DNA of 30,690 bases, from the IMG/VR virus record IMGVR_UViG_3300010354_000368, positions 1-30,690 of that record. The stretch is one strand, 5' to 3'. Source of the DNA: a virus. The position numbers and the translations under genes were made by a program. Under the pieces are notes generated by a model. That model saw nothing but the letters and a program-made list of their open reading frames with translations, had not been told where the DNA came from and made no database searches. Below, one piece after another: positions 2,311 through 15,560 of the stretch. Positions within the stretch are counted from its first letter, which is position 1, and every line of letters starts with the position of its first letter.

Positions 2311-2552
2311 TATGCGTATGCGATGAGGTTTCCGGGTTCCGTGCTCTTGGCAATCGTACCGTGCTGCGTGTAGATCGACCCTGGTGGCAGTAGTCGTGCC
2401 TGCGACTGTACGCTCCCAGGAATCTCGGTTGGCAGGCTCGTCTTGGGCAGTGTGTCGTTTGTCTGGACAATTGCACGGATGAGCGGTGTCGTCGGGTTAT
2501 AGGCCGCCAGTTGACGGACGGACATGATCTGCGGTGTGGTGTTGATGGTCAT
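2310..2552 (-). CDS. Hypothetical protein (80 aa)
   Basis: Unrecognised. A polar protein rich in Thr, Pro, Ser and Gln with few charged residues and no clear domain. It looks extended or disordered (MTINTTPQIMSVRQLAAYNP at the start). Its ATG overlaps the methyltransferase stop as ATGA, and its TAA overlaps the next ATG, so it sits inside the coupled chain and is probably translated. Confidence 0.5.
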   Translation of the reverse strand: MTINTTPQIMSVRQLAAYNPTTPLIRAIVQTNDTLPKTSLPTEIPGSVQSQARLLPPGSIYTQHGTIAKSTEPGNLIAYA

Positions 2553-3406
2553 GGGTGTGGGTTAGCTGAAAGTTCCTGCATTAAAACTCGGAAGGCTCGC
2601 TCTGCGGTTGCGGGGACGACTCCGTTGCCGAGCATGCGCAGCTCGTCGGTACGATTGTCACCGGAGATGCACAACTTGCCATAGTCCAGCCCACTGGAAG
2701 TCCGAGTAATGTCTCCACCCAGCGCTGGTTGAGTTTGCCTGACGGTTCTAGGCGGCTCCCATGCGTGCTGGAGTTCGCCGGGTTGGCTTGGCCATGCTTG
2801 ATTACTACTGTAGTCAATGACTCCTGACTGCCCTTCATTCCCCGTGAACGATCCTGAAAGCCCTGTCTCACCTCCGATGCCACTGGACTCGGCCAAGACA
2901 AACACCCGTTTCCGTTGGTGGGGCGCACCAACTTCGCTCGCGCTGAATATGCCCCACGTCGTTCGGTAACCCATTCGTCCCAGGTCGTCGAGGACGTCAC
3001 GCAGCCCGAGGGTAATGTGTCCCTCGACGTTCTCGAAGAAACAGATTCTGGGCTGCAAGGTAGCAATTCCATCTGCAATCCACGGCCAGAGGTGCCGAGG
3101 GTCGTCTTTTCCTGCTCGTTTTCCTGCAGAACTAAATGGTTGGCAGGGATATCCGCCAGAGAGGATGTCCACTTTGCCTCGAAAAGACCTCCAAGGAAAG
3201 GACTTGAGATCAGTCCAAATCGGAGCCGCATCAAGCGACCCGCCTTCCATTCTCGCAAGAAGAAGCTCGACTGCGCTGGCTTCGATCTCCGAATAAGCGA
3301 CTGTTCGCAAGCCTGGGATGCAGCGACGGAGTCCGAGGTCAATGCCTCCGTACCCGCTGCAAAGGCTGATATGAGTTGTTTGGGTAGTATCCACATCAGT
3401 CAACAT
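2549..3406 (-). CDS. DNA (cytosine-5) methyltransferase (285 aa)
   Basis: Transfers a methyl group from S-adenosylmethionine to C5 of cytosine in DNA. All core motifs are present. Motif I is SLCSGYGGIDLGL (14-26). Motif IV is GGYPCQPFS with catalytic Cys88. Motif VI is ENV (125-127). Motif VIII is QRKR (164-167). Motif X is LGNGVVP (259-265). The target-recognition region (about 172-250) is short. No restriction enzyme partner lies nearby, so this is probably an orphan phage enzyme that protects phage DNA or alters expression. The start is the ATG overlapping the preceding 19-aa gene. A second long open frame covers almost the whole gene on the same strand (separate entry). Confidence 0.95.
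   Translation of the reverse strand: MLTDVDTTQTTHISLCSGYGGIDLGLRRCIPGLRTVAYSEIEASAVELLLARMEGGSLDAAPIWTDLKSFPWRSFRGKVDILSGGYPCQPFSSAGKRAGKDDPRHLWPWIADGIATLQPRICFFENVEGHITLGLRDVLDDLGRMGYRTTWGIFSASEVGAPHQRKRVFVLAESSGIGGETGLSGSFTGNEGQSGVIDYSSNQAWPSQPGELQHAWEPPRTVRQTQPALGGDITRTSSGLDYGKLCISGDNRTDELRMLGNGVVPATAERAFRVLMQELSANPHP
2581..3396 (-). CDS. Overprinted second frame within the methyltransferase gene (271 codons)
   Basis: An ATG-started frame, +1 relative to the methyltransferase, stays open for 271 codons from just inside the gene to near its end. The product is not random-looking. It has TTWDEWVTERRGAYSARAKL (138-157), LSWPSPVAS (166-174) and GKLNQRWVETLLGLPVGWT (220-238). WPTP-type segments and an LNPxWVExLMGxPxGWT ending are, from memory, characteristic of a group of phage proteins linked to C5 methyltransferases. 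Either this frame is translated, or it is used after a frameshift to give an alternative recognition domain, or it is a passive mirror of a conserved gene. I cannot decide without database comparison. Confidence 0.35.
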   Translation of the reverse strand: MWILPKQLISAFAAGTEALTSDSVAASQACEQSLIRRSKPAQSSFFLREWKAGRLMRLRFGLISSPFLGGLFEAKWTSSLADIPANHLVLQENEQEKTTLGTSGRGLQMELLPCSPESVSSRTSRDTLPSGCVTSSTTWDEWVTERRGAYSARAKLVRPTNGNGCLSWPSPVASEVRQGFQDRSRGMKGSQESLTTVVIKHGQANPANSSTHGSRLEPSGKLNQRWVETLLGLPVGWTMASCASPVTIVPTSCACSATESSPQPQSEPSEF

Positions 3407-4906: not shown

Positions 4907-5316
4907 TTTGTCATCTCTTTGTCGATTTCTCCGAGTGTAAACGTCTTGCCATTCACAGTGATGCGCGTCTCGGGCGGGAGTGCTATTCTTCCGTGCAACT
5001 CCATGAAGTGAGCAAGCTCCTGCTCAAGCTCTGCGATGCGCTGGTGCGCTTTTGCGAGCTGCGCCCCGAGCGTGCGGGGTGCTTTGGCAGGGACAGCAAG
5101 ACCGAAAGCCAAGCAAAGCTCGGTGTAAGTCTTCTTGCCCATCTGCCAGCAGTTTCTGGTGTTTGGGTGGTTAAGCCACTTTACCAGCTCGTCGCGAGTC
5201 TTGTGCTGTGCGGCAAACTTGGCAGCACGGTAGCTAAGTGGTTGCCCGAGGATGCAGCCCAAGTCTTGAGCCGTTTTCTCGCGGAATACTAAACGATCTT
5301 TCTGTGAACTATTCAT
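4903..5316 (-). CDS. Hypothetical coiled-coil protein (137 aa)
   Basis: Unrecognised as a family. An N-terminal folded part (about 1-75) contains NHPNTRNCWQMGKKTYTEL, which could be a small helical nucleic-acid-type domain. It is followed by a coiled-coil helix (AQLAKAHQRIAELEQELAHF, about 85-104) and a short beta ending ITVNGKTFTLGEIDKE. A DNA-binding protein that dimerises through the helix is plausible but unproven. It overlaps the preceding gene by 8 bases and the 22-aa frame by 4. Confidence 0.6.
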   Translation of the reverse strand: MNSSQKDRLVFREKTAQDLGCILGQPLSYRAAKFAAQHKTRDELVKWLNHPNTRNCWQMGKKTYTELCLAFGLAVPAKAPRTLGAQLAKAHQRIAELEQELAHFMELHGRIALPPETRITVNGKTFTLGEIDKEMTK

Positions 5317-5524
5317 TTTCTTGTATGAGTTTGTATGCTTCTGCCATTACCAGATCAGCGTCGAGTAACACTGCCCGGTCTCCAGGCATGGAGTCCATGT
5401 CGTTAATCAGCTTCTGCCGCAAACGTGTGGAAAGTCCTTTGATGACATGCTCTGCCATCCGAGTAAAGTGCCGATGCCGGATCAGTTCGGCACGAAGATC
5501 TGCGATATTTAGTGGATTACTCAT
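5309..5524 (-). CDS. Hypothetical helical protein (71 aa)
   Basis: Unrecognised, entirely helical in appearance (MSNPLNIADLRAELIRHRHF, then GLSTRLRQKLINDMD, ending MAEAYKLIQENE). The ATG at 5524 lies within the 3' end of the 29-aa gene; a TTG two codons upstream is less likely. It is translationally linked to both neighbours. Confidence 0.55.
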   Translation of the reverse strand: MSNPLNIADLRAELIRHRHFTRMAEHVIKGLSTRLRQKLINDMDSMPGDRAVLLDADLVMAEAYKLIQENE

Positions 5525-5606
5525 TATCAATGAACAGGTTTAGTATAGTGCAAACAAAAGCTGCGATGGCGGCCAAAACAATGGCAATGTGTGATTTTTT
5601 CTTCAT
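5517..5606 (-). CDS. 29-aa membrane microprotein
   Basis: ATG at 5606 overlaps the helicase C-piece stop (ATGA); TAA at 5517-5519. The product starts with KKK and then has one hydrophobic helix of about 19 residues (IAIVLAAIAAFVCTILNLF) and ends DNE, so it looks like a single-pass membrane peptide or uncleaved signal anchor. It overlaps the next gene by 8 bases. Function is unknown. Confidence 0.5.
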   Translation of the reverse strand: MKKKSHIAIVLAAIAAFVCTILNLFIDNE

Positions 5607-6193
5607 GGAGCGACAAAGGAAGCAGTCTTTCCAACAAAACGCAAGTCTGTTGCTACGCCGCAAGGGCCATTGCGCTGGAAAGGAATGCTGATCTTGCGGA
5701 TCTCGCTGCCTTCCTCCTCATGGATTTTGATGGCCATGATACAGGTGGCATCCTGCTGGATTGAGCGGCTCTCCCGAGCTTTCCCCTGCTCGTTAAGCTG
5801 GGTAATACCGATGACGAGGCATCCAAGCTCAAGACCGATTAGCCGGAGTGCCCGGCTCACCTCAGCCACCTCACGCTCACGGGTGGACTCGCGCCCCAGC
5901 TCGCACCGCACAAGCTGGATGTAGTCCACCAGCAACACACCCAAGCCATCCGGGGCTTTCGACATAGCTCGAGCGGTGGCCGTGATTGCTGCAATGTCAT
6001 GCAGGTCGTCCCGGATGACAATCTTTGCCCGTGACAGCACCTGTGTGGCTCGTGCAACCGCTTGCATCTCATGCGGGTGCTTCACTCCCTCAGCCAGCGT
6101 GCGGAGCCGCACATTGCCAATCTTGGCAACTAGTCGGTCAATGATCTGCGCCGCTGGCATCTCCAGCGACACGATTAAAATCCCTTTGTCCAT
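5603..6193 (-). CDS. dnaB: Replicative DNA helicase, C-terminal piece (split DnaB, 196 aa)
   Basis: The second half of a DnaB-family RecA-type motor. The protein begins with the beta strand that follows the P-loop helix (GILIVSLEMPA), so the catalytic Glu is E11. Walker B is LLVDYIQLV (87-95). The polar sensor segment is ITQLNEQGKARESRSIQQDA (130-149). QRNGPCG (173-179) holds the likely arginine finger. The ATP-binding P-loop is missing because it lies on the other piece (8005-8697). Together the two pieces make 426 residues, the normal DnaB length. The ATG is preceded by AAAGG at short spacing. Retention of every motif suggests both pieces are functional and assemble. Confidence 0.9.
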   Translation of the reverse strand: MDKGILIVSLEMPAAQIIDRLVAKIGNVRLRTLAEGVKHPHEMQAVARATQVLSRAKIVIRDDLHDIAAITATARAMSKAPDGLGVLLVDYIQLVRCELGRESTREREVAEVSRALRLIGLELGCLVIGITQLNEQGKARESRSIQQDATCIMAIKIHEEEGSEIRKISIPFQRNGPCGVATDLRFVGKTASFVAP

Positions 6194-6422
6194 TACCTTT
6201 ATGTATCTGTTGTGAATTATGTGACTTTTGGCCTCGATCCTTCATCACCTCGATAACCACTTCAATGATGTCACTGGATTGGTTTTCTGGCAGATGACGG
6301 ATCTCTTCCATCTTGGCTCGGCATTCGGCAGTGCTGCCCCGCATGATGACCGTCTGCACGATCTTCGGACGAGGCAGCTTGACGTTGCCGATGACGGTGG
6401 ATTTACGCAACAGAACCGGCAT
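6138..6422 (-). CDS. Hypothetical protein between the helicase pieces (94 aa)
   Basis: Unrecognised. The N-terminal 60 residues look folded (LLRKSTVIGNVKLPRPKIVQ, then an acidic helix DIIEVVIEVMKDRG). The last 30 are polar and partly read through the start of the helicase C-piece, which it overlaps by 56 bases. It overlaps the exonuclease end by 20 bases. Because it ends inside the C-piece it may control re-initiation there. Confidence 0.45.
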   Translation of the reverse strand: MPVLLRKSTVIGNVKLPRPKIVQTVIMRGSTAECRAKMEEIRHLPENQSSDIIEVVIEVMKDRGQKSHNSQQIHKGNGQRDFNRVAGDASGADH

Positions 6423-7224
6423 AACGACGATTCAACACGCGGATACCAGACGGCCCAGGCCATTCGTTCGACTGGCGCATGACAGCAAAGGCGCGGAGTT
6501 CGTTGTCGAGCAACTCATCCTGTGCGTCGAGAGCGTCATCATGCGCCTCCATCAACTGACAGAAATGTGGCTGCTCGGTGTCCACAACGGCGAACAGAAA
6601 GCGGACATTCTCTTTCCCAAGCTGACGAAGTCCCCAAGAGTACCAAAGAGCCTGACGGTCGTATGCCAAGTCCCAGAACTTACGCGGGAACTTGAAGAAG
6701 TCGCTGGTCGTCTTCAGATCAACAATCGTCCAGTGATCGACGTCGCCATGTGGCGGGATAATCAGATCAGGCCGCCCCTTAAACTGGAGCGTACCAAAGC
6801 GTGAGTCCGTCCAGAACATCGATGCTTCCACCCACTCCATCTGGTCATCTGTCGCGGTCTTAGCGCAGAATCCAAGCTGTGCAAGCAGCACCTCAGCAGA
6901 AAGGACAGCACCTTCGATGCGCTGGGCTTCCTCCTGGTTGACGACTTCCTTGCCAGCATTCTCGATGCAAAACGCCTCCCAAGTCTCTTTACCGATCTTC
7001 GTGCGCCTGTCCACCGGCGGACATACTGCGTACTCAATGCGGTTCTCCAACGCCTGAGCGTGGATCAAAGTGCCGAGGATCATGTCCCGGGAAGGCTTGA
7101 AGTCCTGTGTGCGCCGCCATGCGTAGTAGGCTGGGGACTGCACAAACCAGTCAAACTGGTGCTTGGAGAGTCCGTCCATCGAGCGATAGTCGGACATGGG
7201 GAGGTTGTGATGAATAATGTTCAT
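6403..7224 (-). CDS. PD-(D/E)XK exonuclease, RecE/exodeoxyribonuclease VIII-like (273 aa)
   Basis: A predicted 5'-3' exonuclease of the PD-(D/E)XK superfamily (Cas4/RecE/YqaJ side). Visible elements: LSKHQFDWFVQSPAYY near the N-terminus (19-34), GTLIHAQ with His55, KGRPDLI with Asp153, IVDLKTT with Asp169 and Lys171, and YDRQALWY with Gln191. This set matches phage nucleases that resect DNA ends for single-strand annealing. The SSB-like and resolvase-like genes in the same cluster fit a recombination role. It starts in an ATGA overlap with the kinase gene. It lies inside the interval that divides the helicase. Confidence 0.85.
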   Translation of the reverse strand: MNIIHHNLPMSDYRSMDGLSKHQFDWFVQSPAYYAWRRTQDFKPSRDMILGTLIHAQALENRIEYAVCPPVDRRTKIGKETWEAFCIENAGKEVVNQEEAQRIEGAVLSAEVLLAQLGFCAKTATDDQMEWVEASMFWTDSRFGTLQFKGRPDLIIPPHGDVDHWTIVDLKTTSDFFKFPRKFWDLAYDRQALWYSWGLRQLGKENVRFLFAVVDTEQPHFCQLMEAHDDALDAQDELLDNELRAFAVMRQSNEWPGPSGIRVLNRRYAGSVA

Positions 7225-7697
7225 AGTTGTATTATTAAGTCTTCGATTGTGGTGTGCAGATCCTGCACGGTTCCGTTGTTCACGATTTCATAGTGACATG
7301 CAATGTTTTTTTGCTCGGTTTCGCTAACATGCTCAATCACAGGAATGTCTGATCGCACAATTCGCACGAGCTTACCCCCTTGGCGGCGAATCCACTGGGC
7401 TTCGTTCTCGAAGCGCACGTCCGTAATGACGCACGGCTTTCCGTACCGAATGGGGTTGCTCCAGCGCATGTGACGAATCCAGACCTCTGGATCAAACTCG
7501 CGCCCAGCCATGCCGATGTCTTGCAACAGCTTGCGCCCCCGTTCGTCCTTCACGCCATTCCACCCGTAGTGCTGCACGGCAATAGTCTTAATGGGATCAG
7601 CAAAAGCTGCTCGTTGATACCCGGCACGGAAGAACACTTCTGCTGCGGTATCCTTTCCCGCTCCGGCATTTCCAACTAATCCGATGATGTAATTCAT
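7221..7697 (-). CDS. Deoxynucleoside monophosphate kinase (158 aa)
   Basis: Phosphorylates dNMPs to dNDPs to supply precursors for phage DNA synthesis. The P-loop is GLVGNAGAGKDT (6-17), with the GxGKDT form typical of phage dNMP kinases. DVRFENEA lies near the middle (acceptor and lid region), and a HVSETEQ motif occurs near the C-terminal third. The start ATG at 7697 overlaps the previous stop as ATGA; an upstream in-frame extension lies within the other gene and is rejected. It is coupled to the exonuclease gene by ATGA. Confidence 0.85.
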   Translation of the reverse strand: MNYIIGLVGNAGAGKDTAAEVFFRAGYQRAAFADPIKTIAVQHYGWNGVKDERGRKLLQDIGMAGREFDPEVWIRHMRWSNPIRYGKPCVITDVRFENEAQWIRRQGGKLVRIVRSDIPVIEHVSETEQKNIACHYEIVNNGTVQDLHTTIEDLIIQL

Positions 7698-8008
7698 TGT
7701 GCTGCGTTCTTTTCTAGGCTGAGGCATCCCGTGATCTTGCCAGCCGAGTCGCGAATGAACTTGGCCGGGGAAAGCAGATCCTGCCGCTCAGGGTACTGCT
7801 GGCGCACGATGGACGGCACGATAAACGCCACCCCATCATACGGAGCCGGGACACCGGACACACTGAGGATGCGGTTCTCAACGACTGGGATGCCTTGAAT
7901 CTCTCCGGCGTCAATGGTTTGCGCGTTGCAGCGGGCAATCTCGCCGGATGCGTACAGGACGAGGTCGCCAATCTTGATGTCGTGTGGAGTTAAGTTGATG
8001 AGTTTCAT
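7694..8008 (-). CDS. Conserved unknown protein of the INLTPH type (104 aa)
   Basis: It begins MKLINLTPHDIKIGD and later has PAPYDGVAFIVPSIVRQQYP, DLLSPAKFIRD and ITGC near the end. I recognise this pattern as a small conserved family found in phages and bacteria whose function is unknown. It is all-beta-like and soluble. The ATG overlaps the helicase N-piece stop as ATGA, so ribosomes finishing the helicase fragment can start here directly. Confidence 0.7.
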   Translation of the reverse strand: MKLINLTPHDIKIGDLVLYASGEIARCNAQTIDAGEIQGIPVVENRILSVSGVPAPYDGVAFIVPSIVRQQYPERQDLLSPAKFIRDSAGKITGCLSLEKNAAQ

Positions 8009-8697
8009 TCTTGTGTGATGAGATTTGCGATGATGTTGAGGGCAAACATGGTCTTGCCGGATTTGGTTTCGCCCCCGATAACAACGAAGTCTCCGTAGCG
8101 GATCGGGGTAAGGTTGTCGAGTTTCTCGTACCCAGTACGGATACGCTGCGTTTGATCGTCACCGGTCTCGTATCGAGTGACAGCCTCGAGCAACAGTGAC
8201 TGCGTGTCCATCCGTTTCGGCGGAGCGAGCTTGGTCTGGATCGCATCAACCTGCATGCAGACGTCGCAGACCAACTCCGAGGTCGTTACGTCCGTCTTGT
8301 GAATCTTGCCCATCGCCTCGTGCAAGACAACCATCAAGGTGCGTCGTTTGGCGGTAGAGCTAACAATCGCCAGCAACTCTGGCAACGCAGACTCAATCGG
8401 CATGACAGTCCACAGATCTGTCAGGGCTGCGAACTCGACATTCGGGATACGTTCCCGGAGTCGCTCGTAAATGATCCGAGCATCCGCGGCAACGCCCTTT
8501 GTGTTCAGATCAAGGACGATGTCCACGCACGCTCGACTCAGCGGGTCGAACATGTCGTTGCTCGTAAAGCCGCGCTCAGCCATGACGTTGAGCACCGTCT
8601 TCGGGTTGTTGAGCGCAATGGACGCAACTCCACGTTCAGCCTCGAGTGCCTGCGGGAGAGCTAAGTCGTCACCAGGCTTGGTCAGTTGTTTCTTCAT
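8005..8697 (-). CDS. dnaB: Replicative DNA helicase, N-terminal piece (split DnaB, 230 aa)
   Basis: A DnaB-like N-terminal helical domain (LPQALEAERGVASIAL at 14-29; helices to about 110), a linker helix (about 112-155) and the beginning of the RecA-type motor. The P-loop GGETKSGKT is at 208-216, followed by MFALNIIANLITQE and then TGA. The stop comes exactly at the end of the P-loop helix. The rest of the motor is encoded at 5603-6193 as a separate gene. The ATG at 8697 is preferred to an upstream in-frame start inside the preceding gene. No intein sequence follows the break. Confidence 0.92.
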   Translation of the reverse strand: MKKQLTKPGDDLALPQALEAERGVASIALNNPKTVLNVMAERGFTSNDMFDPLSRACVDIVLDLNTKGVAADARIIYERLRERIPNVEFAALTDLWTVMPIESALPELLAIVSSTAKRRTLMVVLHEAMGKIHKTDVTTSELVCDVCMQVDAIQTKLAPPKRMDTQSLLLEAVTRYETGDDQTQRIRTGYEKLDNLTPIRYGDFVVIGGETKSGKTMFALNIIANLITQE

Positions 8698-9235
8698 TGA
8701 GTAAGTTTCCAGATTTAAGTTTACGACGTTCAGCGCGGAACTCAGCAGCTCGCTCAAACCATGACATGAGGAAGGTGCCAAGACCCTTCCTCTTGCGCTT
8801 CTTGCCGGGGTTGCCGATCAGCCACTGAGCAGCCTTCACCATCTCTTCGTGGGTCGTCTGTACGCCGTACTTGTCGATGGCCAAGTCGAGCACGGAGACA
8901 GGCGCAAAGGTTGTGCCGTCCGAGCAGTGAAAAACCATTTTGTAGATGAATGGGTTCCCCTTCTCTCTCCCCGCTTCCTCGCCCCTTTCCTTTCTTTCCC
9001 CCATACCCCCTATCTTACCTAACCCCACTCCATCACCCCTCTTCTCATCCCCTCCGGCCATCATTAAAAGGCTTTCGCTCGTTTTTGCATCGAACATCGG
9101 CAAACAAAACTGCTCGCCAGACGTGCTGACAGCCTCGCCAGACGCCCCAGCAACATCGTCGTGATAGACGACAGCGGAAGCCACTCCAAGAAGCTCAGAA
9201 ACGGTTCCGTTGAGGTATGTCACCATCAGTTTCAT
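8669..9235 (-). CDS. Unknown two-part protein with replication-protein-like C-terminus (188 aa)
   Basis: N-terminal part (1-60) unrecognised. The middle (about 60-95) is Gly/Glu/Lys/Arg low-complexity sequence encoded by a polypurine tract. The C-terminal part (about 97-188) has AAQWLIGNPGKKRKRKGLGTFL followed by SWFERA. A WxxxNPxxRKTxxGxxRFLxxWL-like ending recurs at the C-termini of phage replication and helicase-loading proteins, as I recall. Its position directly upstream of the helicase N-piece (29-base overlap) fits an initiator or loader. This assignment is inference. A good Shine-Dalgarno (GAGG) and an ATGA overlap support the start. Confidence 0.6.
   Translation of the reverse strand: MKLMVTYLNGTVSELLGVASAVVYHDDVAGASGEAVSTSGEQFCLPMFDAKTSESLLMMAGGDEKRGDGVGLGKIGGMGERKERGEEAGREKGNPFIYKMVFHCSDGTTFAPVSVLDLAIDKYGVQTTHEEMVKAAQWLIGNPGKKRKRKGLGTFLMSWFERAAEFRAERRKLKSGNLLNEETTDQAW
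8955..9057 (-). repeat. Polypurine/polypyrimidine tract inside a coding region
   Basis: About 100 bases are nearly all C and T on the + strand, so purines on the coding strand, with only scattered exceptions. The tract encodes a Gly/Glu/Arg/Lys linker in the 188-aa protein and lies about 250 bases upstream of the helicase N-piece start. Such tracts can form unusual DNA structures or serve as unwinding regions. Confidence 0.7.
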
Positions 9236-9546
9236 TCCTCACCCCCTTCTTCGTCCAAGAATTTGCGAGTTGCACGCGCAACGTCACCCAAGCGGAGACG
9301 AACTTCCTCGAGCGAAAACTCCTTCACAATCTCGCGGATGTCCTCGCACACTCGTACCTCCGGGCCGTTCATCTCTTCGAGAGCTTTGATCATCGAGACG
9401 AATGTGCCGAACGCTAAGGCAAGGCTCTCGGTGTAGTGCGGCTCACCCTTGGCTACTCCAGATAGAATAGCTCCATCCTCTTGCCGCATCGTGACGAATG
9501 CCGTGACGACATTCTCTGGTATTTCTATAACGTGTTTTTGATTCAT
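9232..9546 (-). CDS. Hypothetical acidic protein (104 aa)
   Basis: Unrecognised. A short beta-like start (MNQKHVIEIPENVVTAFVTM) is followed by long helices (SLALAFGTFVSMIKALEEM; EDIREIVKEFSLEEVRLRL) and an acidic tail. It lies in the replication cluster between the resolvase-like gene and the 188-aa protein. The ATG follows ACATACTT with no Shine-Dalgarno; the stop overlaps the next ATG (ATGA). Confidence 0.6.
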   Translation of the reverse strand: MNQKHVIEIPENVVTAFVTMRQEDGAILSGVAKGEPHYTESLALAFGTFVSMIKALEEMNGPEVRVCEDIREIVKEFSLEEVRLRLGDVARATRKFLDEEGGEE

Positions 9547-9600
9547 AAGTATGTAGACGTGTGCGCGTTGCCGCAGTCGCGCCCCTGTTAGTATGTAAAC
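9547..9600 (-). promoter_or_regulatory. Short gap with a pair of direct repeats
   Basis: This 54-base gap is one of the few in the early region. It holds AGTATGTAGAC at 9548-9558 and AGTATGTAAAC at 9590-9600 (one mismatch, starts 42 bases apart, about four DNA turns). Between them is a GC-rich segment with the weak hairpin GCGCG/CGCGC. The pair could be binding sites for a regulator such as the HTH protein encoded just upstream. No convincing -10/-35 pair is seen. Confidence 0.3.
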
Positions 9601-9936
9601 TTAGCTCTGCTTCAGACAATCCATGCCTTCTCGCAAAAGCTGGAAGAACAGACAAGAGTCCATCGTGACCTTCCAGGGTTTGCCATTCTTCTTGTGCGCG
9701 ACAATCCAAGACTTCTGCGCCCCAGCATCACGCTCCGCTTGAGCGCAGGCTGCATCAAGGTTGAGAGACTGGACGAACTTGACCTCCATGTGGAGGCCAG
9801 AAAGTTCCTCACAGATCACATCCGGCGAGTCTGTACCCCCGGCGAACTGCTGGCCCCGCCTTGCGGTGAAGCCAGCAGCACGGAGTTCGTCGCGCCACAT
9901 GCGCTCTCCCCGGCAACCTTTAGCCCTGCTGTTCAT
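9601..9936 (-). CDS. Holliday-junction-resolvase-like PD-(D/E)XK nuclease (111 aa)
   Basis: A small nuclease of the Hjc/VRR-NUC-like type. RGER with Glu11 near the N-terminus, GTDSPDV with Asp39, and MEVKFV with Glu51 and Lys53 together form the classic E...PD...ExK active site. The length is usual for such phage resolvases. It would cut branched replication and recombination intermediates before packaging. The ATG at 9936 is chosen (17-base overlap with the HTH gene), because an upstream in-frame extension would lie within that gene. It is grouped with the SSB-like and exonuclease genes. Confidence 0.8.
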   Translation of the reverse strand: MNSRAKGCRGERMWRDELRAAGFTARRGQQFAGGTDSPDVICEELSGLHMEVKFVQSLNLDAACAQAERDAGAQKSWIVAHKKNGKPWKVTMDSCLFFQLLREGMDCLKQS

Positions 9937-10108
9937 TTGACTTGAGCCAAGCCTGCACAGCAGCAAGGTCAAAACGCAGTACACGCTTGTTGAGGCGGAT
10001 CACAGGAATCTTTCCCTGCTTCGCCCACTTAAGCACTACTTGCGAGGATACGCTAAGGAGTTTTGCCACCTCAGCACTGTTTACGAGTTTAGAATCCAAT
10101 GTCGTCAT
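9920..10108 (-). CDS. MerR/excisionase-type helix-turn-helix protein (62 aa)
   Basis: NSAEVAKLLSVSSQVVLKWA (11-30) followed by KIPVIRLNKRVLRFDLAAVQ is the typical winged HTH of the excisionase/HTH_17 group. The protein binds DNA and could be a regulator or recombination directionality factor. No integrase is in the window, so excisionase activity cannot be inferred. It overlaps the SSB-like gene end by 20 bases and the resolvase start by 17. Confidence 0.85.
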   Translation of the reverse strand: MTTLDSKLVNSAEVAKLLSVSSQVVLKWAKQGKIPVIRLNKRVLRFDLAAVQAWLKSNEQQG

Positions 10109-10846: not shown

Positions 10847-11002
10847 TTACTTCTTCCTTCTAGCGGCAGCCTGCTTCTTCGCAGCTTCACGCTGGACGGA
10901 GTAAGCGATGGCAAGAGCCTGCTTCTTGGGCACACCAGCACCAAGTTCCTTCTTGAGGTTTGCTGTGAACGCTTTATCGGAGGGAGATTTACGGAGTGGC
11001 AT
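10847..11002 (-). CDS. Small basic phage protein (51 aa)
   Basis: Lys/Arg/Ala-rich protein with VPKKQALAIAYSVQREAAKK in its second half. Small basic proteins carrying a KQAxAIAYS motif are frequent in phage genomes; their role is unknown, possibly DNA or virion association. The ATG at 11002 overlaps the 3' end of the 1523-aa gene by 14 bases. It is the last gene of the virion block. Confidence 0.7.
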   Translation of the reverse strand: MPLRKSPSDKAFTANLKKELGAGVPKKQALAIAYSVQREAAKKQAAARRKK

Positions 11003-14000
11003 AGGACTTTTGGTTTTTGCTGCGAGCCAAGTGTTTACGTTGCGCCTTACCAAGCACATCACCGTACGCTTCACCCACAGCTTCTTGCACTGCTTTACCT
11101 TGTTGAGTGATTGAGTACAACTTGAAGTTGCCGCTCGGACTCTTGATGATGAGCATGTCGCTCGGTAAACGTGGTTCTTGCGCCGGGGTGATGACTGGTT
11201 CGGGCGTTGGTGGAGTCGCTGCCTTGGTCGTCTCCACAAGGACAGGCTCACGTTTGGGCATCTTACGAACTGCATCAGCCATCTGACGCAGAACCTGTTC
11301 CATGTTCTTAACGGCTTTACCTTCGGCCAACAGATCGGTTGCTCGTTCTGGAATTCGAAGAGGAGCAGGAGCTTGTTCTCGAGGAAGGCCAACCGCACTC
11401 AACGCTTCAAATCCTTTGTACACTCCAGCCGGTGTCGCTTTCGGCGGCTCCATCGCACGCTTCACAAACTCAGCCGGAACCTCCGTCATTGCCTGAGCTT
11501 CGAGCGCAGCCCGAGGCGCACGCTTGCGTTTACCGGCAAAGATCTCACGCACCTCATCAGCTTCAAGTGCAGGAACGTCACGCTGCGCCAATCGAGCTTC
11601 TACGTCTGCACGCAGGGCAGCAACTTCACCGGAGCTTAATTGACCAACAGCACCTGCACGGGCGGATCTAGGGCCAACAGAAGAGCGTTGTTCAGCAATC
11701 TTTGCCAAAGCTCGAGCAGCAACGCCATTCTCTGCTTCGGCAGCGTCACGCAAGAATTGTGCGCGTTGACCAGAGCTGACCTGTGCCAGTTGCGGATACC
11801 GCTCTTCCATGCCGCGTATCTCGGCAGACCGAGCTTGAATGGCAGCTTGTTCGGCCAACGACACGCCAACCTTGCCTTTGGCTCGCTGGGGTTGTGCTGG
11901 AGCTTGAGCTTCCTGCTGTTGTCTAGCCGCCTCCGTAAGCCAGGTTGCCATCAAGCGAGAAGGCAACTCAGTCTCCATCTTTGCACGCAACTCTTGAGCT
12001 TGCTGCGCGGCCTTACGGACAGCAGCAGGGCTGCGAGGCGAGAAGCGGATGTCGGCTCGGTTTAACTGCGTCTGAGCATCCTGCAAGCTGTCGTATACAC
12101 CACGCAAAGTGCCGTCAGGCTCGAACACTTTGGTCTTACCGCTTGAAGCAACGAAAGCTCTGCGCCCCGTCTCTTGATCGGTAACAACCGTGGACTCACC
12201 AAGAGTTTCGCGGATAGAACGCTTCGGGCTAAAGTTACTCCGAAGAGTCGGCATCATCTTCTCGAGATTGACGTTTACCGACACAGGTAAGCCACCCCGA
12301 CCTGCGTACAACTGCACGTTGTGAATGCTATCCAGTCGCAGATCTGAGAAAACATTGCGATCACGATACAACCGTGCATTTGCGCGCTCCCTTCCGTAGA
12401 TGTCGTAAGCCATCATCGGCTCCTTCGGAAGTTCTGACAGCGGAATATTCTGCGGAACATTGACTTGAACATCACTCGGGAAAGATTTCCGAGGTTGGAT
12501 GTTGTTGCCTAAATACATTAGGTCTCGCAGGACCGTAGCAGCTTGTTTGTCAGCTTTTGGCTGCATGCTGCGGAACAACTCCACTGCTGGCACAGGACTG
12601 GGAGCAGAATAGTTCTCCAAGTAGGCCTTTACGAACGGCACAAAGTCTTCGAGCGACGTGATGCCAAACTGCTTGAGCGCAGCATCCACCGGCTCCATGC
12701 CCTTCAAAGACCGGTTGAAGTTCACAAGCTCATTGAGCAGAGACATGTTGTAAACGCCAGCAATCGGGCCTCCTTTAGGCGTCTGCTGCATTCCAAGCGG
12801 CAACAACACGCGCTGCACTCGGCCTCCGTACTCTCTGTCTGCTATGTTCTTCCCTAAAGCAACATCGTGATCGACAACAATGAGTTGTCCATCCTTTGCA
12901 GCTTGATTGAGTCGAGCCACAGCTTCGCGAGCCTCAGGCGCAATCAAAGGACGTCCATGATGCGTTTGGACTTGGAACAACTGACCAAGTTCTGCGTCCG
13001 TGAATGATTTGGTGCGAATGATCGGAGAGCCAGGTTCAACCTTGGTCAACTCTCCAAAGTAACCTCCAGCTTGCACCACTCGAGGATCAACAGCACTTTC
13101 GCCAACAATCTGCCCCAACTGATCAAAGATCATCTGGTGATACTGCGCATGACCCTTCGCCTTCTTACTGCCTAGCTTTGTGCGTACCGGAGATCCAGCA
13201 GCTTCCCCGCTAGGCTGCGCCTCGGCATGCGTGTCTTCGTACCGTGGACGAGGAACGACACCAAGCACTCGAGTTCCGTCTGGCAGCACGTCGCCGGGAC
13301 GAATGCCAACCGTGGACGCAGGGCGTGGAGCTGTGCCCTCTGCGCGAGGGCGTCCACGAACAGGCAAATCCTGCGGGAACATGTTGCGACCGTACAGAAT
13401 GCTGTCTTGCAGTTTTTGCGCGACAGATTGCAGCGTTTTGTCCTGTATCAGCTTGCCGTCCTTGTAGAAGAAACCAGTAATAGGATCAAAACTGGAAGCA
13501 CTTGGCTGCGTCATCAGACCAGCGTACAGATTCTCCAGACCTCGAATGATGGGCTGAAAGATCGACTGTGTCCCTCGGGCTGTCTCAAGAATGCGAGGGT
13601 CGCCTTTGGTCAAGATCTCACCAACGCCCATTGCAGCCCATTCCTCGGCCAAACGCACCGCAGCGGCCTGACGCACAGATGCAGGCTGATTGACGTCCTG
13701 AGCGATCTGCAAAGACTTGCCAAACTCAGCGGCAGCCTCGGGATTGCTTTCCTTTTGCGCTTCGTAATATCGCTGCCCCAAGGCAATCAAGGGTTCGAGC
13801 GCACCAGACAATCCACCTCGATCTTTGATGAGTTGACCAACAATGTCTTCAGCAGCTTTCTGCCCAATGAAAGCGTGAGTGACTTCCTCAACGGCAGCAC
13901 CGGGGTTAATCTGATCGACATTGATCAGAATCGTGCTGCGTCCTTCGTTGTCGTTAAGCACTCGAACTCCGCGCCCCATGTTTTCCCCGGAGCCACCAAG

Positions 14001-15560
14001 GCTTTCCGGTAGAGGTGTAGAGTTATCAACGAATCCAACATCGTGCCCGGCATACTCAGCACTCTTTGTAATTGCAAAGATCTGCGCTTTTTCAGTGGTG
14101 CTTAGTTCACGATTGTTAAGCAGCTTGGTTCGGTTCGCGACATCGTTAGTCGGATACTCTGCCTCATTGAAGATAAAGCTGCGGGTCTCTGGACGCTCGA
14201 CGATGTCTCTAGCCATTTCGCGCAAGAACACGCGATTGCGACCAGCAGGAGTCATTTCCATTGCTCCAGGGATAACCCCAAAGAATGCGCCTACAGTGCC
14301 GCCTGTAGCCCCGCCAACAGCCATTTGTTCCGCAACATCCATTTTGGTATTGAATGGATCTGCTGCCGCTTGTACGCCGGATACACCAGCGCCGATCATC
14401 GCTCCAAGAATAGAGCTATCCGCCACAGCTCCGGCAGCACGCAGCACGGAATCCGGCGGAAGAACCTTGGCAACAGCACGCAGCATGGTGCCAGATTTCC
14501 CAGCCTCTTGTGCCGCTTTAATGCCTTCTGCAATGGTTTTGCTGGGAGCTTCGGAAGCAATTAGTTTTCCACCCCATTCAACAAGTGCTGGAATTGCACC
14601 AGCAGCTCCTCCGGCAGTTCGCAATGCAGAACCTGCCAGTCCTTCTCGGCCTATGGTCTCGGCTCCAGCTTTCGTCAAAGCCTCAACTCCAGCACCAACG
14701 GCAGATCCAGTCTTTTCAGCAATCTTGCCAACAACCTGCCGCGTAATGCCAACCGTGCTTTCCTTGGCTAAGTTAGCCACCATTTGCTCTGCGGTCGTTT
14801 TTCCGGCAGTTCCAAGAAACTTGCCAACAAACGGGAAAAGGACAGTTGCGTCCAAGAAGTTGCTGATCTTGTTAGCCTCTCGAGCGGCTTCTGGGCTGAT
14901 TGGCAAAATCGTCTCACCCCGCTGACGACGCAATTCATCAGCCTCAAGCTGCTTCAAGCTGGTGTAGGCTCGGTAGTCGCCGATGCCCAGAGACGCAGCA
15001 AGTCCTGCAATGTTGAGTCCTTTTTCAGTGCCTTGCAAAAAACCTTCCAGCAAAGATCCCGCTGCATTTGCTTGCGCTCTTTGCGCCAACTCAAACTCTT
15101 GCGGAGAAGTTGCGCCAGCAGGAGCTGCTAGCATTACTCCAGCTTTTGCCGCAGAATAAACCCCTCCAACAATTTCTTTTACAGCATGAGGAAGAATTTG
15201 CGCTATTTGAGACAGCCTAGATGGATCTGCCTCACGCTTGTATTTACGAGCCTCATCCATGAGCTTTGACTGCTCCCGGATAAAGTTGAAGTCATCCTCG
15301 GACACAGGCGCAGCCCCCTTGTCCATCATCTGTAACGCTATCGCTTGCGGAGTGCGCGGAAAGTCTGCATCTAGCGTCTTCTGAAGCTCGCTTTGTGGAA
15401 TGTCCTGCTGAATCTCAATCTGCAAAGGCTTTCCATTCGCGTCAAAGTGGTACGGCAACTCCACTATTGTCCCTTGAGGAACAATCGGATCTTGTGCGGC
15501 TACAGGAGGTTCTTCTACTGACCCGACGCCGGTTGTCTCAAGCGGTGCAATGTTTGCCAT
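10989..15560 (-). CDS. Giant internal virion / ejection-type protein (1523 aa)
   Basis: A very large multi-domain protein at the end of the internal-protein genes, where podoviruses encode proteins injected with the DNA. It has Ala/Gly-rich, membrane-active-looking segments at about 140-190 and 280-440. Around 540-660 is a zincin-like region where VEEVTHAF (557-564) resembles HExxH but has Glu558 in place of the first His, followed by AEEW (638-641). FSPKR at 1110 and FSPRS at 1173 look like the linker boundaries seen in phage polyvalent proteins. The C-terminal 350 residues are helical and Ala/Gln/Arg-rich. No lytic transglycosylase domain was recognised. It begins four bases after the preceding TAA. 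Confidence 0.75.
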   Translation of the reverse strand: MANIAPLETTGVGSVEEPPVAAQDPIVPQGTIVELPYHFDANGKPLQIEIQQDIPQSELQKTLDADFPRTPQAIALQMMDKGAAPVSEDDFNFIREQSKLMDEARKYKREADPSRLSQIAQILPHAVKEIVGGVYSAAKAGVMLAAPAGATSPQEFELAQRAQANAAGSLLEGFLQGTEKGLNIAGLAASLGIGDYRAYTSLKQLEADELRRQRGETILPISPEAAREANKISNFLDATVLFPFVGKFLGTAGKTTAEQMVANLAKESTVGITRQVVGKIAEKTGSAVGAGVEALTKAGAETIGREGLAGSALRTAGGAAGAIPALVEWGGKLIASEAPSKTIAEGIKAAQEAGKSGTMLRAVAKVLPPDSVLRAAGAVADSSILGAMIGAGVSGVQAAADPFNTKMDVAEQMAVGGATGGTVGAFFGVIPGAMEMTPAGRNRVFLREMARDIVERPETRSFIFNEAEYPTNDVANRTKLLNNRELSTTEKAQIFAITKSAEYAGHDVGFVDNSTPLPESLGGSGENMGRGVRVLNDNEGRSTILINVDQINPGAAVEEVTHAFIGQKAAEDIVGQLIKDRGGLSGALEPLIALGQRYYEAQKESNPEAAAEFGKSLQIAQDVNQPASVRQAAAVRLAEEWAAMGVGEILTKGDPRILETARGTQSIFQPIIRGLENLYAGLMTQPSASSFDPITGFFYKDGKLIQDKTLQSVAQKLQDSILYGRNMFPQDLPVRGRPRAEGTAPRPASTVGIRPGDVLPDGTRVLGVVPRPRYEDTHAEAQPSGEAAGSPVRTKLGSKKAKGHAQYHQMIFDQLGQIVGESAVDPRVVQAGGYFGELTKVEPGSPIIRTKSFTDAELGQLFQVQTHHGRPLIAPEAREAVARLNQAAKDGQLIVVDHDVALGKNIADREYGGRVQRVLLPLGMQQTPKGGPIAGVYNMSLLNELVNFNRSLKGMEPVDAALKQFGITSLEDFVPFVKAYLENYSAPSPVPAVELFRSMQPKADKQAATVLRDLMYLGNNIQPRKSFPSDVQVNVPQNIPLSELPKEPMMAYDIYGRERANARLYRDRNVFSDLRLDSIHNVQLYAGRGGLPVSVNVNLEKMMPTLRSNFSPKRSIRETLGESTVVTDQETGRRAFVASSGKTKVFEPDGTLRGVYDSLQDAQTQLNRADIRFSPRSPAAVRKAAQQAQELRAKMETELPSRLMATWLTEAARQQQEAQAPAQPQRAKGKVGVSLAEQAAIQARSAEIRGMEERYPQLAQVSSGQRAQFLRDAAEAENGVAARALAKIAEQRSSVGPRSARAGAVGQLSSGEVAALRADVEARLAQRDVPALEADEVREIFAGKRKRAPRAALEAQAMTEVPAEFVKRAMEPPKATPAGVYKGFEALSAVGLPREQAPAPLRIPERATDLLAEGKAVKNMEQVLRQMADAVRKMPKREPVLVETTKAATPPTPEPVITPAQEPRLPSDMLIIKSPSGNFKLYSITQQGKAVQEAVGEAYGDVLGKAQRKHLARSKNQKSYATP

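Follow-up and report, generated by a model that had tools for sequence, protein, structure and literature searches.

Phages are known to encode replication enzymes in pieces. NrdA of phage Aeh1 and the T4 topoisomerase proteins gp39/gp60 are made as separately translated chains that must reassemble, their genes having been split by homing endonuclease genes, and Aeh1 NrdA has been shown to be active (PMC2988022). In most members of the phage group that includes the OM43 phages MEP401 and MEP402, an essential-type replication gene, that for DNA polymerase, is cut between domains with one small open reading frame (ORF) in the gap (PMC10580990). So-called fractured genes are a further variant: the passages of PMC10882715 that cite Dassa 2009 describe gp41, a DnaB-like phage helicase, as encoded by two genes with others between them, its chains being rejoined by a split intein. 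Here, we describe a DnaB-type replicative helicase that is encoded by two separate genes in a stretch of viral DNA of 30,690 nucleotides (positions 1 to 30,690 of IMG/VR record IMGVR_UViG_3300010354_000368; this whole stretch is hereafter called the window). As in the Aeh1 and T4 systems, the enzyme would have to be put together from separately translated chains, but the gap holds mainly metabolic and recombination genes, and what is cut is a hexameric motor, inside its ATP-binding core. In contrast to fractured gp41 as those passages present it, there is no intein.

Our data confirmed the split, which a sequence-only reading had proposed, at the coordinates given in Table 1: both ORFs are there, and family searches assign both to DnaB. 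The N-piece (230 aa) ends in NLITQE and a stop codon, 14 residues past the GKT of Walker A, and the C-piece (196 aa) begins with MDKGILIVSLEM, so that the two sum to 426 aa. Pfam assigns the C-piece to DnaB_C (positions 50-254, 1e-30). The hit of the N-piece is to PHROG 19 (DnaB; 6e-17), its Pfam matches to DnaB_C (2-45) and to the DnaB N domain both lying slightly under the cut-offs. With profiles built from relatives, the two halves match the DnaB structure 2r6a at residues 11-230 (N) and 233-440 (C), and thus next to nothing has been lost at the break. This coverage, together with the invariant motifs described below, agrees with the earlier statement that no motif is missing, with the P-loop on one piece and the rest on the other. 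Taken over both chains, the N domain, the linker, the RecA-like C domain and all motifs are present, in the same order and over the full length seen in the DnaB family (Pfam DnaB and DnaB_C, PHROG 19, PDB 2r6a, 4esv and 8a3v). Unlike in that family, they are distributed over two ORFs, in the window as well as in 87 of 87 distinct relatives, with the cut between Walker A and Walker B and other genes in between, and neither half by itself has a complete ATP site.

The split is widespread. Scanning viral contigs with the N-piece, the C-piece and an alignment of C-pieces gave 7, 65 and 159 matching loci, respectively, in overlapping sets; among the matches listed are at least 104 split contigs from 91 metagenome datasets. 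We sorted split from continuous genes by C-piece identity and the upstream open frame. Loci with a C-piece identity of at least 60% proved to be split, and those below were continuous or cut by a contig end. In a comparison of gene order over 87 distinct C sequences, the order N-INLTPH-EXO-P94-C was constant wherever a contig spans the locus (INLTPH and P94 are small proteins, and EXO is an exonuclease; Table 1). The same break is therefore found in other genomes, and chance is far from explaining why dozens of independent contigs share a split gene and its gene order. These phages make up a large, uncultured group from aquatic habitats; isolate phages include no close relative, the best matches being about 34% identical for the C-piece (P1 Ban) and 24% for the N-piece.

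Both pieces are conserved as though they still made up one working enzyme. Walker A (GG..KSGKT) is invariant in all 77 aligned N sequences, as are SLEM, the Walker B Asp, TQLN and the QR of the arginine finger in all 86 aligned C sequences. The residue ahead of the finger QR varies (I, F, Y or W) and is not lysine in the uncut relative described below either, whereas Bst DnaB has a lysine at this position. Median pairwise dN/dS values of 0.060 (N), 0.043 (C) and 0.054 (EXO) indicate that both helicase pieces are under strong purifying selection. Over 27 nonredundant genomes, the distances of N and C correlate at 0.915, compared with 0.68 to 0.83 for other gene pairs, and the partial correlation remains 0.785 for N with C while falling to about 0 for N with EXO, INLTPH or P94. 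In bootstraps of 75 resampled columns, the N-C pair came ahead of the pairs of N or C with gap genes in 94 to 99.7%. The halves thus appear to be inherited as a unit, while the genes nearby are exchanged.

A second, full-length helicase, which by the sequence-only reading would have marked the pieces as decayed, was not found in 22 split records of 30 to 45 kb, where PF03796 detects just the two pieces. In 20 of these records, SF2 (PF04851) and Toprim searches gave no match, and phrog_35358 gave a single weak one, in G014. We did find a sibling phage without DnaB (G031, loci L299/L300, IMGVR_UViG_3300032092_000074), whose capsid, portal and terminase are 70 to 74%, 71 to 72% and 68 to 69% identical, respectively, to those of two split phages. 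Its replication module comprises an 840-aa primase/helicase, an SF2 helicase and an Erf-like annealing protein, with EXO adjoining Erf and P94 lying 4.5 kb away from EXO. Within this phage group, the split DnaB seems to replace another replication motor.

Considering these data, we propose that the two polypeptides fold together into one DnaB-type replicative helicase, a reading to which we give a probability of about three in four. The N chain would supply the collar domain, the linker and the ATP-holding strand, P-loop and helix; the C chain would supply the rest of the RecA core, including the catalytic Glu, Walker B, the DNA-binding loops and the arginine finger. Both chains would join through the central beta-sheet, and six N-C pairs, i.e., 12 chains, would make the ring. 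We also consider it likely, with a shade less confidence, that each ATP site is built from three chains, combining the P-loop of N, the Glu and Walker B of its partner C and the finger of the next C. The invariant catalytic residues split over both genes, the purifying selection, the joint inheritance of N and C and the lack of a second DnaB lend indirect but good support to reassembly, as the sequence-only reading had suggested, and from them we infer physical assembly and helicase activity. If so, the meeting of the halves could control ring assembly, for example, through unequal or timed synthesis. Several points weigh against this proposal. An N-piece alone would have its P-loop lobe exposed without a partner, and host DnaB is available, so that a phage helicase need not be essential. 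The correlated history of N and C shows co-maintenance rather than physical contact, and the lead of the N-C pair over the EXO-INLTPH pair is kept in just 76% of the 75-column bootstraps. Finally, contigs may be incomplete, which limits the helicase counts in the split records.

With respect to origin, an uncut homologue exists in a related phage and both pieces are conserved, as expected of genes in pieces. This homologue (L055, 421 aa) is 48% identical over the C part and 32% over the N part, and the terminase of its phage is 62 to 63% identical to those of split phages. Our tree unites the split sequences in a single clade (99/96); L055 branches next (100/96) and the outgroups are all uncut, which indicates that the split is a single ancient fission, derived from an uncut ancestor. 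The earlier reading had regarded a continuous gene in a relative as evidence against a genuine split; the uncut relative that we found is sister to the split clade, and none lies inside it. Nor did an uncut helicase beside the cassette turn up through the terminase, DnaB being found in none of 20 further contigs. In the AlphaFold model of L055 (pLDDT 92; DnaB fold by Foldseek), the break falls at residues 216-220, where the chain turns from the Walker A helix (203-217) into the strand at 221-226.

The junctions bear on how the break arose. INLTPH lies directly 3' of N in relatives, and the N-tails, which run for 11 to 37 residues past GKT, mostly overlap its start; in the window, the overlap of the INLTPH start with the N-piece stop is ATGA. 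Because these tails differ in length among relatives, the uninterrupted ITQDKGILIV that the sequence-only reading obtained by joining the pieces is not a conserved feature. On the other side, P94 extends out of frame into C in several lineages; in the window, its last 56 bases overlap the C-piece, and its last 18 or so residues are an out-of-frame reading of it. Both junctions look like those of a gene block inserted in a helicase gene. A block bounded by INLTPH and P94 would have come into the turn after the Walker A helix, with the C-piece gaining a start codon at the strand that follows. The overlapping junctions and the uncut sister fit the block insertion in the earlier suggestion of a mobile-element-like event, whereas its mobile-element part found no counterpart, as neither a mobile element, an intein or an intron nor a common homing nuclease was found. 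A homing endonuclease may have split the gene and later been lost, with the gap refilled. Such an origin, which is compatible with the helicase function proposed above, has precedent in Aeh1 nrdA and T4 gene 60 (PMC2988022), and the gap of one relative does hold a 140-aa HNH_3 endonuclease ORF with a helix-turn-helix (L146, 2382-2804). We nevertheless consider it doubtful: no homing endonuclease gene lies in the gap of the window, in 77 loci that have both halves, this is the only HNH ORF recognized in a gap, and EXO and P94, which stand apart and without DnaB in the sibling phage, look like ordinary phage genes.

As to function, the pieces might have taken on separate new jobs, the N-piece, for example, binding or poisoning host DnaB, with the host helicase replicating the phage. 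Reliance on host DnaB is common among phages, the contigs of some phages in the same terminase group (possibly fragments) show no DnaB, and DnaB relatives consisting of the RecA core only are known in mycobacteriophages (PMC4523182). We regard this alternative as improbable, since an invariant Walker A in N and an invariant Glu, Walker B and finger in C would be purposeless unless they meet, and since N and C evolve together with the full helicase length retained.

Even less probable is a single-chain helicase rejoined by RNA trans-splicing, a split intein or other splicing. Split-intein gp41 is a precedent from environmental phages (PMC10882715), and inteins seem to circulate in this group, as about 280 aa are inserted in the large terminase subunit of the uncut sister (L217, 10023-12644, IMGVR_UViG_3300034012_002308), in its Walker A region behind LGGNR. 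This insert ends in VIHHN before SAKSS and matches the Pfam intein-splicing family below the cut-off; it is probably an intein without a recognized endonuclease. At the helicase break, in agreement with the sequence-only reading, Pfam and PHROG searches found no intein domain at the N-piece end or the C-piece start, and the chains end and begin at helicase sequence rather than at intein halves. No intron was matched by Rfam, either up to E 1 in window positions 5000-10000 or at gathering cut-offs in 12 other loci. An in-frame stop stands directly ahead of the C start codon in 15 of 86 loci, and with the variable N end there is no fixed junction, which argues for two separate products. Although split genes in single metagenome contigs often come from a broken, decaying gene or an assembly error, this is next to impossible in view of dN/dS values of 0.04 to 0.06, the invariant motifs and the lack of an uncut relative in the clade, and it is ruled out for the family by the number of contigs and datasets given above.

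Our reading of the locus as one helicase in two chains leaves the neighboring genes to be described (Table 1). The gap in the window spans 1.8 kb and holds, as the sequence-only reading had it, four genes whose ORFs are all intact; that reading needed correction at the tail of P94, as set out above, and at the start of the deoxynucleoside monophosphate (dNMP) kinase, which is probably at MNYIIG, about position 7697, rather than at 7727. A structural model of P94 (pLDDT 79) found no fold match in the PDB, and P188 found no family in Pfam and PHROG searches. Relatives have gaps of 1.3 to 3.8 kb, which may also hold a C5 methyltransferase, ThyX or HNH ORF, while the dNMP kinase lies inside the gap, lies downstream of C or is not found. 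Given the constant order but variable size and contents, the split persists while the contents change.

Table 1. Genes at and around the divided helicase, in window coordinates
Feature	Coordinates	Strand	Basis or content
Helicase N-piece	8005..8697	-	DnaB N domain, linker, Walker A strand-loop-helix (GGETKSGKT)
Helicase C-piece	5603..6193	-	SLEM catalytic Glu, Walker B VDYIQL, ITQLN, QRNGP arginine-finger motif
INLTPH protein, 104 aa, function unknown	7694..8008	-	phrog_30542 3e-16
Deoxynucleoside monophosphate kinase (dNMP kinase)	7221..7727	-	phrog_139 5e-41, Pfam DNMK
EXO, exonuclease VIII-type PD-(D/E)XK protein	6403..7224	-	phrog_412 2e-48; Pfam DUF3799, PDDEXK_1
P94, 94 aa, function unknown, just ahead of C-piece	6138..6422	-	Precedes C in relatives whose contig covers this stretch
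P188, upstream of N-piece, overlaps N start	8669..9235	-	tblastn in relatives; conserved neighbor
P73, small gene downstream of C-piece	5309..5530	-	tblastn in relatives; frequent neighbor

The sequence-only reading had called a motor domain broken between Walker A and Walker B, with metabolic genes in the gap, unusual, and in the literature searched, which missed many subscription journals, there is no report of a hexameric RecA-fold motor divided at this place, nor of a split DnaB. In the ATPase heads of Rad50 and SMC proteins, the Walker A lobe and the Walker B lobe come from separate segments to form one ATPase; in contrast to the present case, nature has one chain there, joined via a coiled coil, and the head is of the ABC type, not a hexameric helicase. 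If the halves assemble as we propose, nature would have supplied an experiment on the extent to which a RecA core can be taken apart without uncoupling ATP from movement, and the laboratory would gain a helicase already in two parts with which DNA unwinding could be controlled. The fission has outlasted a deep divergence, in which N-piece identity fell to about 37%, and one may ask why it has not been undone. Taken singly, either half is read as a partial DnaB, so that annotation pipelines may call such phages damaged or helicase-less.

Some further observations concern the gap genes and the phages themselves. A C5 methyltransferase family occurs inside the helicase gap in 22 relatives (e.g., L147, 2617-4032), whereas the window has a C5 cytosine methyltransferase downstream of the helicase (2549-3406, minus strand). 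In the genome collection, the sole match to the split family is a 13-kb contig (L152, JAFMIZ010000069.1) whose gap carries a ThyX gene; it was binned with a member of the Verrucomicrobiota (Pedosphaera sp.), which is a weak hint to the host, as phage contigs cannot be binned reliably. Virions of the SU10 type are hinted at for this group: SU10_MCP is matched by the major capsid protein of a split relative, and SU10_portal, weakly and below the cut-off, by a portal (L214, 1050-2099; L216, 48-1916). Finally, the window carries a 1523-aa ORF without a PHROG match (10989-15560, minus strand), of which the part from 746 to 1168 resembles a 693-aa protein of the sibling phage G031.

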